Source: Caproicibacterium lactatifermentans (GTDB taxonomy: Bacteria; Bacillota; Clostridia; Oscillospirales; Acutalibacteraceae). Taken from it: 64,000 bases of DNA. A program made the position numbers and the translations under genes. How positions within the stretch are numbered: position 1 is the first letter of the stretch; the number at the start of each line of letters is the position of its first letter. The DNA lies in assembly GCF_013315815.1 (NCBI RefSeq), contig NZ_CP046051.1, positions 1 to 64,000 on the forward strand, in the 5' to 3' direction. Positions 51,385 to 56,049 of this stretch are shown here, in pieces. The notes under the pieces were generated by a model. It saw only the letters and a program-made list of their open reading frames with translations, was not told the DNA's origin and did no database searches.

Positions 51385-52220
51385 GTGGTACATTATATAT
51401 AGTTGGTACGCCAATCGGAAATTTGAGTGATTTTTCGCCGCGTGCGGTACAGGTTTTAAGCAGTGTCGATTTTATCGCGGCCGAAGACACCCGTGTGACG
51501 CTGAAACTGCTGACACACTTTGGCATTAAAAAACCATTGATTAGTTATTTTGAGCATAATAAGTGGCAGCGCGGCGGCGGAATACTGGATCGCATTGCGG
51601 CCGGTGAAAACTGCGCGCTGGTCAGCGATGCCGGGATGCCTGCAATTTCGGACCCCGGTGAACTGTTGGTCAAGCAGGCTGCGGAACGCGGCATTCCGGT
51701 GGCGGCGGTGCCCGGTCCCAGTGCAGTGGTAACAGCGCTGGCGGTTTCCGGTCTTCCAACCGGCCGCTTTACATTCGAGGGCTTTTTGAGCGTCAACCGC
51801 AAAAGTCGGCGGGAACATTTGGAAGAGGTCAAAAATGAACACCGTACTATGGTGTTTTATGAAGCGCCGCATAAATTGCTTGCCACCTTGCAGGATATGC
51901 TTGCCGCATGGGGGGACCGGGAGCTGGCGCTGGCGCGGGAACTGACCAAAGTACACGAGGAAGTGCGGCGTACCACACTATCTGAGGCGGCAGAATACTA
52001 TGCACAGAATCCGCCGCGCGGAGAGTTTGTATTGGTTATCCACGGTGCTGCGGCGCCGGAAAAAGAGGTGCTTTCGTTGGAGGACGCAACTGCTTTGGCG
52101 CGCACGCTGATGGCGGAGGACAGCCTTTCCGCTTCTGCGGCGGCAAAGCAGGCGGCAGCGGAAAGTGGTCGCCGGAAAAACGAGATTTACCGTGTGCTGA
52201 CAGCGAAAGAAGAAAAATAA
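51381..52220 (+). CDS. rsmI: 16S rRNA (cytidine-2'-O)-methyltransferase RsmI
   Basis: RsmI methylates C1402 of 16S rRNA. The 279-aa product has the tetrapyrrole-methylase fold: LYIVGTPIGNLSDFSPRA at residue 4, AAEDTRVTLKLL near 34, LVSDAGMPAISDPG near 79, and the P-loop-like VPGPSAVVTAL near 107. GTG start overlaps the upstream stop as GTGA. A C-terminal extension of about 50 residues is normal for the family. It ends a likely operon and is followed by two hairpins. Confidence 0.95.
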   Translation: MSGTLYIVGTPIGNLSDFSPRAVQVLSSVDFIAAEDTRVTLKLLTHFGIKKPLISYFEHNKWQRGGGILDRIAAGENCALVSDAGMPAISDPGELLVKQAAERGIPVAAVPGPSAVVTALAVSGLPTGRFTFEGFLSVNRKSRREHLEEVKNEHRTMVFYEAPHKLLATLQDMLAAWGDRELALARELTKVHEEVRRTTLSEAAEYYAQNPPRGEFVLVIHGAAAPEKEVLSLEDATALARTLMAEDSLSASAAAKQAAAESGRRKNEIYRVLTAKEEK

Positions 52221-52285: not shown

Positions 52286-52320
52286 AAAAGACGTACCCTC
52301 ATTTTGGGGGTACGTCTTTC
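52286..52320. terminator. bidirectional terminator between rsmI and nrdG
   Basis: AAGACGTACCCTC (52288-52300) pairs with GGGGGTACGTCTT (52307-52319), one mismatch, with A/T runs on both sides. It also ends the nrd operon on the minus strand. Confidence 0.85.
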
Positions 52321-52322
52321 TT

Positions 52323-52847
52323 CTATTCAGTTTCTTCGTCCAAATCGTCCAACACAATGTGACCTTCCCGCCGGGTGGCGTTCATGTCAATGACACGCTG
52401 GTTACGGCTGCCGCGAAAATGCAGTGTCAAATCCCGCTGCGTTTCTATATAGGGACCGTCTACCAGGTAGTCGGTCAAGTCCAGCAGCCGGTGCACGCCC
52501 GGTTTTGTGCATTTCAGCAGTTCCTCATAGGTCCAGCCGGAATAAACGGTCAAATCTAGTGTTGTTTCCCGTTTTAGCCGCTCGGCAAGGTCCGCCAATG
52601 CGTTGGCCTGAGCGAATGGTTCACCGCCGGAGAATGTAACGCCCCTTAACAGCGGGTTTTCCTTCATTTCAGCCAGTAAACTGTCAATAGAAGCAGTATA
52701 GCCGCCGGAAAAATCATGTGTCTGCGGATTTTGGCAACCGGAACAGTTATGCGGACAGCCCTGTACAAAGACCGTATAGCGAATGCCGCGGCCATCTACA
52801 ATGGACTCCGGTTCTGTGCCGGCCAGCCGCAGCTCAGTGCAGGCCAT
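52323..52847 (-). CDS. nrdG: anaerobic ribonucleotide reductase activase
   Basis: NrdG is a radical-SAM enzyme that puts the glycyl radical on class III RNR. The 174-aa product has the cluster motif GCPHNCSGC near residue 31 (CxxxCxxC) and FSGGEPF near residue 83, which binds SAM. The start at 52847 gives normal family length; an in-frame ATG at 52883 would add 12 residues, and neither has a clear ribosome site, so coupling with the overlapping upstream gene is likely. It overlaps the small radical-domain gene by 14 bp. Confidence 0.93.
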   Translation of the reverse strand: MACTELRLAGTEPESIVDGRGIRYTVFVQGCPHNCSGCQNPQTHDFSGGYTASIDSLLAEMKENPLLRGVTFSGGEPFAQANALADLAERLKRETTLDLTVYSGWTYEELLKCTKPGVHRLLDLTDYLVDGPYIETQRDLTLHFRGSRNQRVIDMNATRREGHIVLDDLDEETE

Positions 52848-52998
52848 GTTTGACACGGTCTTTTTCTTCGGCGCGCTTTGCATCGTTCCAGCGGTCCATG
52901 GTGCCTACCAAATAGCCGGTGATGCGGCGAATACGGTCAAAGCTGACGCCTTCGCCAACTGTATTGTTTTCAGGATTTACAATTAACTGATGTATCAT
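52834..52998 (-). CDS. separate glycyl-radical domain of class III ribonucleotide reductase
   Basis: This 54-aa gene has a strong ribosome site (GAGGAG, nine bases upstream) and lies 41 bp after the nrdD stop. Its core, FDRIRRITGYLVGTMDRWND at residues 20-39, with KRAEEKDRVKHG after it, matches the extreme C-terminus of full-length NrdD proteins. In E. coli that region reads RRVCGYLG and holds radical Gly681; the equivalent here is Gly28. The neighbouring large NrdD lacks this region. The protein therefore probably supplies the radical Gly in trans, as GrcA/YfiD does for pyruvate formate-lyase. It overlaps nrdG by 14 bp, linking it to its activase. Confidence 0.88.
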   Translation of the reverse strand: MIHQLIVNPENNTVGEGVSFDRIRRITGYLVGTMDRWNDAKRAEEKDRVKHGLH

Positions 52999-53039
52999 AA
53001 AGCAGCACTCCTCTATTAAAAATAATGGGATAAAAAAGT

Positions 53040-55343
53040 TCAGTGTCCGTCGCAGCCACAGCCGTCAACAATCGGAACATTCGGGTACTTTTTACGTAGT
53101 TTATTCAGCTGTTCTATGCTGACTGGTTCGCCCTCCCGGCGGCCGCAGCGCGGACATACGTTGTCAATTACACCGTTATAGCCGCATACCGGGTCGCGGT
53201 CCACTGGATGGTTGACACTGCCGTAGCCAATGCCGGATTCTTTCATGCAGCGGACAACAGCCTCAAAGGCGTCCAGATTCTTGCAGGTATCGCCGTCCAG
53301 TTCTACGTAAGAAATATGGCCAGCATTTGTCAGGGCATGATACGGTGCCTCTATTTTAATCTTCTTAAATGCACTGGTGGAATAATACACTGGTACATGG
53401 AAGGAATTGGTGTAGTATTCACGGTCCGTAATACCCGGCAGAATACCATACTTAACCTTATCAATTTTAACAAACTGACCGGACAGGCCCTCTGCCGGGG
53501 TTGCCAACAGGGTAAAGTTCAATTTACGCTTTTTGCTCTCGTCATCCATACGTTTACGCATATGACCGATGATTTTTAAACCGAGCTTCTGGCTTGCTTC
53601 ACTTTCGCCGTGATGTTTGCCGGTCAAAGCGACCAGTGTTTCCGCCAGGCCAATAAAGCCGACCGAAAGGGTGCCGTGTTTCAGAACATCTGCCACACTG
53701 TCATCGGGACCGAGCTTTTCGGAATCAATCCATACACCCTGTCCCATGAGGAATGGATAGTTGTACACCTTTTTGCTGCACTGAATCTTAAAGCGGTGCA
53801 GCAGCTGACGAATGCACAGATCAATGCGGTCATCCAAAATCTTATAGAAACGGTCGAGGTCGTGGTGTGCTTCTATGCCGATACGCGGCAGGTTAATGCT
53901 GGTAAAGCTCAGATTGCCGCGGCCGCAGGTTACTTCTTTGTCGGGGTCATAAACGTTGCCCATGACGCGTGTGCGGCAGCCCATGTAGGCGACTTCACTG
54001 TTATAGGTGCCATCATAATACTGCAGATTAAACGGCGCATCAATAAAGCTGAAGTTCGGGAACAAGCGCTTGGCACTGGTCTTCATCGCAAGCTTGAATA
54101 GGTCGTAGTTCGGGTCGCCGGGATTATAGTTAATGCCCTCTTTGACCTTGAAAATCTGTACCGGGAAAATCGGGGTTTCGCCGTCGCCCAAACCGGCTTC
54201 TGTTGCCAGCAGCAGGTTGCGCATGACCATGCGGCCCTCTTCACTGGTGCAGGTACCGTAGTTCACGCTGGAAAACGGAACCTGTGCACCTGCACGGGAG
54301 TTCATGGTGTTCAGGTTATGAATAAGGGCTTCCATGGCCTGATAAGTCGCCTTGTCTGTCTCATGCCAGGCAGTCTGGACTGCGAAACGGTGTGCGGTAT
54401 GGGCCTGTTCCTCGGTGATTTCTTGGTATCCGTTTTCACGCTGATGTGCCGGCAGAATCTTTACCAGCTTTTCTTCCAGCGCATCGCTGTTGTTCATACG
54501 GATTTCATCGGCGTCCAGCTGGTTATACAGATAAGCAGCCAGCGCTTCCGCATCGGGGATACCCATCGAGAGATTGCCTTCAAACCACAGGGCAAGTCCC
54601 AGACGGTACATCTTCCGGTAGGTTTTAGCAACGCCCGGAGCCATGGAGTAATCGAAGTTCGGGACGGACTGTCCGCCGTGCATTTCATTCTGGTTTGCCT
54701 GAATGGCAATGCAGGCCAGCGCCGCGTAGGAGCGAATGTCGTTCGGTTCCCGCAGGGTACCGTGACCGGTGCAGAAGCCGCCTTTAAAGAGCTTCAACAG
54801 GTCAATTTGGCAGCAGGTTTCGGTCAGCATGTAGAAATCTTCATCATGAATATGAATGTCACCGTTCAGGTGCGCTGCGGCGATATCCTTAGGCAGCACA
54901 TAATTGTTGATGAAGTACTTACTGCCTTCACTGCCGTACTTCAGCATGGTGCCCATAGAAGTGTCAGCGTCGATATTGGCGTTTTCGCGCTTTAGGTCTA
55001 CATCTTTGGAGTCACAGAAGGTCAGCTCTTTATAAATATCCATTAGGTCGCCTTCCGCCTGACGGATTTTTGCGTGCTCAGCGCGATACAGAATGTAGGA
55101 TTTAGCTGTTTTTGCAAAGGAAGCTGCAATCAGCTGTGCCTCTACTTCGTCCTGTACCAGTTCTACAGCAGGGACCTTTCCCTGCGGCAGGGAAGCAATG
55201 ACCTTGTCTGCGATGGCATTCAAGTCCTGTGCAGACATTTTTTCACCTGTAACGGACTGATTTGATTTTTCAATCGCACGATAGATTTTTTTTCGGTCAA
55301 ATGGGACAAGGTCACCGTTGCGTTTTCGAATCTGCGTAAACAA
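53040..55343 (-). CDS. nrdD: class III ribonucleoside-triphosphate reductase, large part without glycyl-radical motif
   Basis: NrdD reduces ribonucleotides to deoxyribonucleotides without oxygen. I place the start at the TTG at 55343, with GGAGGG six bases upstream, giving 767 aa. In order: an ATP-cone regulatory domain (about residues 3-95, QIRKRNGDLVPFDRKKIY), then the ten-stranded barrel with ETCCQIDLL, NEMHGGQSVPNFDYSM and NSRAGAQVPFSSVNYGT, and a C-terminal Cys region (DPVCGYN ... CPRCGRREG ... GCGCDGH). The RRxxGYLG radical motif expected after the Cys region is absent; a 54-aa gene just downstream carries it. The gene is led by a strong promoter with possible regulatory sites. Confidence 0.94.
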   Translation of the reverse strand: MFTQIRKRNGDLVPFDRKKIYRAIEKSNQSVTGEKMSAQDLNAIADKVIASLPQGKVPAVELVQDEVEAQLIAASFAKTAKSYILYRAEHAKIRQAEGDLMDIYKELTFCDSKDVDLKRENANIDADTSMGTMLKYGSEGSKYFINNYVLPKDIAAAHLNGDIHIHDEDFYMLTETCCQIDLLKLFKGGFCTGHGTLREPNDIRSYAALACIAIQANQNEMHGGQSVPNFDYSMAPGVAKTYRKMYRLGLALWFEGNLSMGIPDAEALAAYLYNQLDADEIRMNNSDALEEKLVKILPAHQRENGYQEITEEQAHTAHRFAVQTAWHETDKATYQAMEALIHNLNTMNSRAGAQVPFSSVNYGTCTSEEGRMVMRNLLLATEAGLGDGETPIFPVQIFKVKEGINYNPGDPNYDLFKLAMKTSAKRLFPNFSFIDAPFNLQYYDGTYNSEVAYMGCRTRVMGNVYDPDKEVTCGRGNLSFTSINLPRIGIEAHHDLDRFYKILDDRIDLCIRQLLHRFKIQCSKKVYNYPFLMGQGVWIDSEKLGPDDSVADVLKHGTLSVGFIGLAETLVALTGKHHGESEASQKLGLKIIGHMRKRMDDESKKRKLNFTLLATPAEGLSGQFVKIDKVKYGILPGITDREYYTNSFHVPVYYSTSAFKKIKIEAPYHALTNAGHISYVELDGDTCKNLDAFEAVVRCMKESGIGYGSVNHPVDRDPVCGYNGVIDNVCPRCGRREGEPVSIEQLNKLRKKYPNVPIVDGCGCDGH

Positions 55344-55389: not shown

Positions 55390-55418
55390 ATTCTAGCACT
55401 GCAAAACGTGCTTGTCAA
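55390..55418 (-). promoter_or_regulatory. nrdD operon promoter
   Basis: On the minus strand a perfect TTGACA (55413-55418), a 17-bp spacer and TAGAAT (55390-55395) form a near-consensus promoter, with a leader of about 40 nt. Confidence 0.85.
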
Positions 55419-55457: not shown

Positions 55458-55473
55458 TAACTATATATTGTGG
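55458..55473. promoter_or_regulatory. candidate NrdR box
   Basis: TAACTATATATTGTGG matches 12 of 16 positions of the NrdR box ACACTATATATAGTGT. It lies 40 bp upstream of the nrdD -35. NrdR usually binds paired boxes about 31 bp apart; I see only a weak second match near 55483-55498. Confidence 0.5.
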
Positions 55474-55674: not shown

Positions 55675-56049
55675 TTAAAGGTGCTTTGCCCAGGAGCAAA
55701 GTTTGACAGCGGCCTCCAGTGCACCGGAGGCCTGTTCGGTCAGGCGGTATTCCACCCGCGGCGGAATTTGCTGAAATTGCTGCCGCTGTATCAGACCGGA
55801 GGCGCACAGGTTCTTCAGGCTCTGGCTGAGCATCATGTCCGTGATGCCCGCGACACGGCTGCGGATTTCGCCGTAGCGCAGACTCTCCGCACTGCCTAGG
55901 ACCAGCAGAATACGCAGCTTCCATTTTCCGCCTACCAGTTGCAGTGCATGGGACAGCAGGGCGTCCTGTTCCTCTTCGCCAACAACGGACAGAGAACGCC
56001 CGCGCTTTTTTCCCTTTTTCTCTTTTTCTTTGCTTTTTTCTTTTTTCAT
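55675..56049 (-). CDS. HxlR-family transcriptional regulator
   Basis: The 124-aa product has a very basic N-terminus (15 Lys/Arg in the first 17 or so residues) and then the HxlR winged-helix domain: GGKWKLRILLVLG near residue 40, LRYGEIRSRVAGITDMMLSQSL split over residues 57-78, and the wing PPRVEYRLTEQA. The conserved N-terminal Cys of redox-sensing members is absent; the only Cys residues are near 82 and 118. It overlaps queH by four bases (ATGA), so the two are translated together. The effector and targets are unknown. Confidence 0.85.
   Translation of the reverse strand: MKKEKSKEKEKKGKKRGRSLSVVGEEEQDALLSHALQLVGGKWKLRILLVLGSAESLRYGEIRSRVAGITDMMLSQSLKNLCASGLIQRQQFQQIPPRVEYRLTEQASGALEAAVKLCSWAKHL

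Follow-up and report, generated by a model that had tools for sequence, protein, structure and literature searches.

The window analysed here comprises the first 64,000 nucleotides (nt) of contig NZ_CP046051.1 of Caproicibacterium lactatifermentans, and it carries nrdD, the gene for the large chain of a class III (anaerobic) ribonucleotide reductase (RNR), followed by an open reading frame (ORF) of 54 amino acids (aa) and by nrdG. In E. coli and T4 NrdD, the radical Gly lies in a C-terminal RRVCGYLG motif, and the accessible part of the literature likewise gives the catalytic chain of class III RNRs a C-terminal radical Gly. Comparison of sequences makes it very probable that the locus in the window encodes a two-chain class III RNR. 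Its small protein may descend from a spare part, the in-chain copy of the radical domain having decayed more than once.

An earlier note, made from the DNA alone, had claimed that the large NrdD has no RRxxGYLG at its end and that a 54-aa gene with a strong ribosome site, lying between nrdD and nrdG, carries RRITGYLVG. Both observations hold: the C-terminus of the large chain reads CPRCGRREGEPVSIEQLNKLRKKYPNVPIVDGCGCDGH, in which the motif is absent, and the small gene, 41 nt downstream of nrdD in a different frame, has AGAGGAG 9 nt ahead of its ATG. The large chain matched PF13597 (NRDD) at model positions 1-531 of 562 (E 6.8e-188) and the equivalog model NF005497 with 1049 bits, and it aligned to Prevotella copri NrdD (8p23, E 3.1e-175) through chain residue 705. 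The small protein matched PF13597 at positions 533-562 of 562 alone (E 8e-9), NF011292 at positions 582-617 (E 4.8e-15) and 8p23 at chain residues 707-738. The two chains are therefore a complementary, almost gapless cover of one solved NrdD and of one Pfam model, the chain being split after the cysteine knuckle and before the radical loop. The alignment to full-length NrdD that the earlier note had proposed agrees with its two-chain assembly, as Gly28 of the small protein falls at the radical glycine. In the accessible text of PMC11226230, P. copri NrdD has finger-loop Cys416 and radical Gly711, and Cys456 of the window chain pairs with this Cys416; note that the 8p23 chain numbering was taken as that of the paper plus 4, an offset that fits both residues.

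The large chain therefore has the NrdD barrel with the finger-loop Cys expected of a class III RNR, but the C-terminal RRxxGY motif expected of the same chain sits on the separate 54-aa protein. The latter is a small stand-alone glycyl radical domain, as GrcA/YfiD are; it matched NRDD, whereas PF01228 (Pfam Gly_radical, the pyruvate formate-lyase type) gave no match up to E 1. A dedicated radical S-adenosylmethionine (SAM) activase is also at hand, since nrdG adjoins the small gene and its product scored 139 bits against TIGR02491 (cut-off 126.1). Among proteins 0.55-1.75 times its length, the small protein had 4504 database matches; the radical motif was present in 120/120 and a Met start in 119/120 of the best 120, and beyond these some matches may be contig-edge fragments of one-chain NrdD. 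In 12 comparisons (11 distinct genes, L094 being identical to L143), pN/pS, the ratio of nonsynonymous to synonymous differences, was 0.075-0.244 over a 37-codon core, located with a pattern in which many residues are fixed and which 13/13 chosen loci satisfied. These low values indicate selection on the small chain.

We then considered the RNR complement of the genome, which is a single contig of 1.99 Mb (99.99% complete). NRDD matched exactly two proteins in it, the large chain and the 54-aa protein, the latter present in one copy. The class I/II alpha chain (PF02867) gave 0 matches in the genome and was positive in 11/14 control genomes, class I beta chains being outside this search. Accordingly, we rejected a backup in the form of a second NrdD or class I/II alpha chain, none having been found in the single contig. 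Free-living bacteria require RNR for deoxynucleotide synthesis, so that, with no other RNR large chain found, the NrdD/54-aa pair very probably works. The combination that the earlier note named as speaking against a split enzyme, namely a second full-length nrdD together with a radical Gly in the large chain, was not encountered.

The same gene order, small gene beside truncated nrdD, recurs across genomes. We tried 168 loci, in 25 of which no NrdD reached 400 bits against that of the window; the 143 classified loci comprised 69 with truncated NrdD (66 distinct proteins), 70 with fused NrdD and 4 that were cut or broken. RRxxGYLG was absent from the last 120 residues in all 69 truncated chains. 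The small gene adjoins truncated nrdD in 63/69 loci (L103 and L112 included), which is not a survey figure because many loci were fetched for the small protein or for the split itself; the other six are L144 (at a contig edge), four from Desulfovibrionaceae, and L132 of genome G215. Split examples are Clostridium sp. D33t1, Anaeromassilibacillus sp. An200 and Anaerotruncus sp. G3, and fused ones are Caproiciproducens, Caproicibacter fermentans and Acetanaerobacterium elongatum.

This recurrence bears on whether a normal nrdD was simply broken by a frameshift in annotation or assembly, a concern raised with the original observation. A frameshifted nrdD does exist in one fetched genome (L185/L242), but in the window the large chain ends at a TGA stop and has its own tail of 32 residues, the 41 nt that follow contain a ribosome site and lead to a start codon, the assembly is a single contig, and the same break is found in many genomes, with the small gene adjoining in the 63 loci above. 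We rejected a frameshift or assembly error on these grounds and give it practically no chance. The frameshifted example is the nrdD of Clostridia bacterium UC5.1-1E11, which lies in two frames in the assembly, with small gene and nrdG that look intact.

Co-occurrence was next quantified by surveys. The order survey covered 107 genomes, of which 103 had an NRDD match, and NrdD was counted as truncated where the match stops at position 530-539 of 562. A stand-alone domain was found in 24/24 genomes with truncated NrdD vs 8/79 others. The Fisher p of 6e-17 overstates independence since the genomes are related, and the counts come from hand reading, with contig-edge pieces only in part of the 79. 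The family survey of 60 genomes gave 9 with truncated NrdD, of which 9/9 had the stand-alone domain, and 5 further genomes with fused NrdD plus a free domain. From the matches listed in the phylum survey (348 genomes), 25 genomes were chosen for having a free domain, and of these 16 had truncated and 9 fused NrdD.

The free domain is not always linked to nrdD. In family f112 it does not adjoin nrdD in 6/10 genomes, lying for example ~430 kb away in single-contig G564, and in 3/4 Desulfovibrionaceae genomes with a clostridial-type truncated NrdD (L178, L180-L182; L243-L245, L247) it is on another contig. Free NrdD radical domains of ~90-100 aa with an N-terminal extension, not adjoining nrdD, were seen in 13 genomes (L119-L130 and L261; G257, G243, G297, G261, G282, G126, G368, G340, G379, G305, G322, G228 and G215). 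As 11/13 of these genomes hold an intact NrdD, such domains look like a YfiD/GrcA for RNR. As to the N-terminal part of the longer free proteins, six relatives all carried NRDD, and five of them showed no other significant family; no conserved neighbours were evident in six unlinked loci (L120, L121, L123, L125, L128, L130). Some genomes have two or three small radical-domain genes (L095-L097 in G242, L100 in G363, L101 and L102 in G332 and G319); those of G363 stand in tandem, those of G242 are partly unlinked, and the sequence GYLVGDLxRFNxGK occurs in some variants.

The tails of the truncated large chains were examined for relics of a radical domain. In hhalign, the tails of 12 long-tailed chains matched the small protein along the full length (score 30.7, E 1.7e-6; 100 column shuffles reached 15.9 at most) and scored 23.3 against the fused domain. 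The 43 distinct short tails, the class of the window, resembled the small protein over ~12 residues (score 17.3 vs a maximum of 16.6 in 100 shuffles), and their comparison with fused domains was not significant (score 9.4, E 0.14). Short and long tails were alike, with a score of 40.2 (E 1.8e-9) that includes their shared start. There is thus good reason to regard the long tails as carrying a decayed radical-domain relic, and we tentatively suggest that the window tail is a decayed copy as well; its stretch aligned to the radical site reads KLRKKYP, without Gly. In addition, G459 NrdD ends in FERIHRITE, directly ahead of the radical Gly, G215 in FERIPRL and G228 in SERVARIKA, and translating the following 260 nt in three frames gave no displaced GYLVG.

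Trees of the NrdD body, with the radical domain left out, were built from 138 rows and from 158 rows (L283 excluded) by a quick method with one support value. Changes between fused and Gly-less forms numbered 11 among the 138 and 14 among the 158 rows, and well-supported branches forced at least 9 in both trees. Two pairs of sisters, G459 (Gly-less) and G666 (fused) with support 100, and G228 (Gly-less) and G379 (fused) with support 95, all have a free domain, which is the pattern expected if a spare part preceded decay of the in-chain copy. We read this as an NrdD spare part having become an obligatory radical subunit more than once. Desulfovibrionaceae NrdD falls with the clostridial split NrdDs in the 138-row tree, suggesting gene transfer, although this placement is weakly supported in the 158-row tree.

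Note that the NrdD tree by itself gives no direction of change. The two-chain function could be the same and the split old in the group, with the one-chain forms of close relatives being later fusions. One-chain NrdDs of Caproiciproducens, Caproicibacter and Acetanaerobacterium sit among split ones with similar short tails; this speaks for a single split there, with later re-fusion or transfer. On the other hand, NrdD of P. copri, T4 and S. thermophilus are all one chain, some truncated chains hold relic radical-domain sequence, and G459/G666 and G228/G379 resemble fresh losses. We therefore consider an old split rather unlikely, though a serious alternative to repeated decay.

Structure comparison was done against T4 NrdD (1h7b). 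A tethered model of a relative aligned to it through residues 585-589, beyond Gly580, while the large chain alone aligned through 567-575 only. Against P. copri structures, the large chain alone stopped at residues 674-676 in six entries, the best chains having 542 to 647 residues. Because these chains are short and the radical domain is not visible in some forms, according to the accessible part of PMC11226230, the P. copri rows are no evidence and the T4 rows were used.

Several observations weigh against an obligatory two-chain enzyme with a decayed in-chain site. Another NrdD is present in 6/24 genomes of the order survey (G103, G178, G324, G359, G376, G382), a full-length one in 4/9 of the family survey (G244, G248, G273, G285), and also in G520, one of the 16 truncated-NrdD genomes of the phylum survey, so that truncated NrdD is not the sole one there. 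No small protein was found in G394, one of the four Desulfovibrionaceae genomes with truncated NrdD. The window tail belongs to the short class, which is only slightly like a radical domain, and fused rows lie inside the short-tailed split clade, indicating that re-fusion or transfer probably also happened and that decay was not one-way everywhere. In the tethered model, the small domain is positioned under the influence of one-chain homologues that the alignment contains, and residues 766-813, including the Gly (809), have a predicted local distance difference test (pLDDT) score <50; the Gly-Cys contact is thus poorly tested by it. Finally, a Gly is kept at the aligned place in the long-tailed large chains L113 (KGL), L115 (KGY), L116 (PGY) and L118 (KGY), which possibly have two radical sites, given that a separate small protein is also present.

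These four chains, together with the other genomes in which a free domain accompanies an intact NrdD, would fit a small protein that is a repair part only, like YfiD/GrcA, the large chain having its own radical site or another route. However, the aligned stretch of the window chain is Gly-less, RRxxGYLG is missing from it as from the ends of all 69 truncated chains, the genome has no other NrdD, and the free domain occurred in every truncated-NrdD genome of the order and family surveys. A role in repair alone is accordingly very unlikely.

For the two-chain enzyme, we infer the following working. The large chain would supply the allosteric cone, the barrel, thiyl Cys456 and the cysteine knuckle, and the 54-aa protein would be the radical-carrying subunit, its radical being made at Gly28 by NrdG. 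Upon binding of the chains, the loop of the small protein would enter the large-chain barrel and the radical would be passed from Gly28 to Cys456, as in one-chain NrdD. As to origin, comparison of genomes suggests that the free radical domain was first a spare part beside intact NrdD, and that later decay of the in-chain copy, more than once, may have left an obligatory two-part enzyme. The idea in the earlier note that the small protein could be made or replaced separately after oxygen damage gains from other genomes where intact NrdD and a free domain coexist, but is weakened in the window, where there is one small gene and the best promoter-like site lies ahead of nrdD. More speculatively, and we lean against it at present, this could be a class III RNR with an exchangeable radical cofactor, in which the NrdG-charged 54-aa protein docks to large chains and can be exchanged among them. 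Damage by oxygen would then cost a 54-residue peptide rather than the whole enzyme, and a spare-part family in the phylum would have been repeatedly fixed as the only radical carrier of an essential enzyme.

The features of the locus are collected in Table 1. The end of the small ORF and the likely nrdG start overlap by 14 nt, identically in the relative G285 (L093). Of the promoter-like sites in the nrdD region (5 vs 3.5 expected), the one ahead of nrdD is the best (11/12); a weak one (9/12) lies within nrdD at 54043-54015, and a consensus scan of the 41-nt gap gave no promoter for the 54-aa gene alone. An NrdR box upstream of nrdD was rejected, as the only match there (55458-55473) is weak, with 3 mismatches to the consensus; the scan gave 2 matches in the window vs 0.46 expected, and at least 2 in 9/100 shuffles. 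A 15-pair stem at 52287-52319, between the nrdG end and a convergent ORF ending at 52220, was scored as a plus-strand terminator. Upstream of nrdD, the product of the minus-strand ORF 55675-56049 looks like a small HxlR-type winged-helix regulator.

Table 1. Positions of the features of the nrdD locus in the window.
Feature	Positions	Strand	Remarks
nrdD	53040-55343	minus	767 aa; ATG at 55343; stop TGA 53040-53042
54-aa ORF, putative stand-alone glycyl radical subunit of NrdD	52834-52998	minus	PF13597, NF011292 and 8p23 matches
nrdG, radical-SAM activase	52323-52847	minus	likely start 52847; ORF open from 52883; TIGR02491
Intergenic gap nrdD/54-aa gene, 41 nt	52999-53039	minus	Shine-Dalgarno AGAGGAG at 53008-53014
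Promoter-like site TTGACA-17-TAGAAT with TG, upstream of nrdD	55390-55418	minus	11/12 matches; consensus match alone
ATP-cone, residues 4-91	55071-55334	minus	PF03477, E 7.6e-17
Cys456 codon, finger-loop thiyl-radical cysteine (MGCRTRV)	53976-53978	minus	invariant in 45-row alignment A2
Cysteine knuckle (Cys720, Cys730, Cys733), first half of canonical glycyl radical domain	53145-53186	minus	invariant Cys columns in A2
Large-chain tail, residues 736-767, replacing radical loop	53043-53138	minus	tails of 68 truncated chains compared; predicted helix 743-752
Gly28 codon (RRITGYLVG), radical glycine	52915-52917	minus	aligned to 8p23 chain residue 715 = Gly711 of PMC11226230

The large chain was also said to end after a Cys region closing in GCGCDGH. 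It does stop after this region, but besides the window GCGCDGH was seen only in L093, L133, L134 and L184, so that we dismissed the idea of a conserved redox tail. Three conserved Cys (720, 730 and 733) are present in the knuckle, vs four in P. copri, and the GCGC tail of the window chain could provide a knuckle ligand, though it is absent from most relatives.

Compared with one-chain NrdD (P. copri 8p23, T4 1h7b), the window enzyme shares the fold, the thiyl Cys, the cysteine knuckle, the NrdG partner and the radical motif, and with P. copri NrdD (radical motif RITGYLVG) also the cone; it differs in having the radical loop and C-terminal tail on a separate protein and a large-chain tail of different sequence. 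With YfiD/GrcA and Y06I, spare parts of pyruvate formate-lyase as described in the accessible text of PMC8683613, it shares a small free glycyl radical domain able to replace that of a large enzyme, and, as for YfiD/GrcA, the free NrdD domain in other genomes coexists, unlinked, with the intact enzyme. Unlike YfiD/GrcA, the radical motif and the partner are of the NrdD type, and the part in the window looks obligatory rather than spare. The split class II RNR NrdJa/NrdJb likewise has its catalytic chain in two chains but uses adenosylcobalamin, unlike the class III locus here (PMC9669993, accessible part). No description of a split NrdD or an NrdD spare part was found in open-access PMC literature, a search with most subscription papers and all bioRxiv preprints outside its scope; automatic annotation already names some small proteins after NrdD, and the genes are thus known as sequences.

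A two-chain form that occurs naturally, and whose genome yielded no further RNR large chain, makes it directly testable whether NrdG charges a free domain, and would also let radical-loop entry into and exit from the barrel, as well as RNR repair of the pyruvate formate-lyase kind, be tested. A Gly-less NrdD should therefore be called broken only with caution, if at all. The two sister pairs point to the conversion of a spare part into an obligatory subunit. The accessible part of PMC8683613 gives only YfiD and Y06I as validated spare parts and regards ones for other glycyl radical enzymes as possible; the locus described here would extend this idea to an essential enzyme.

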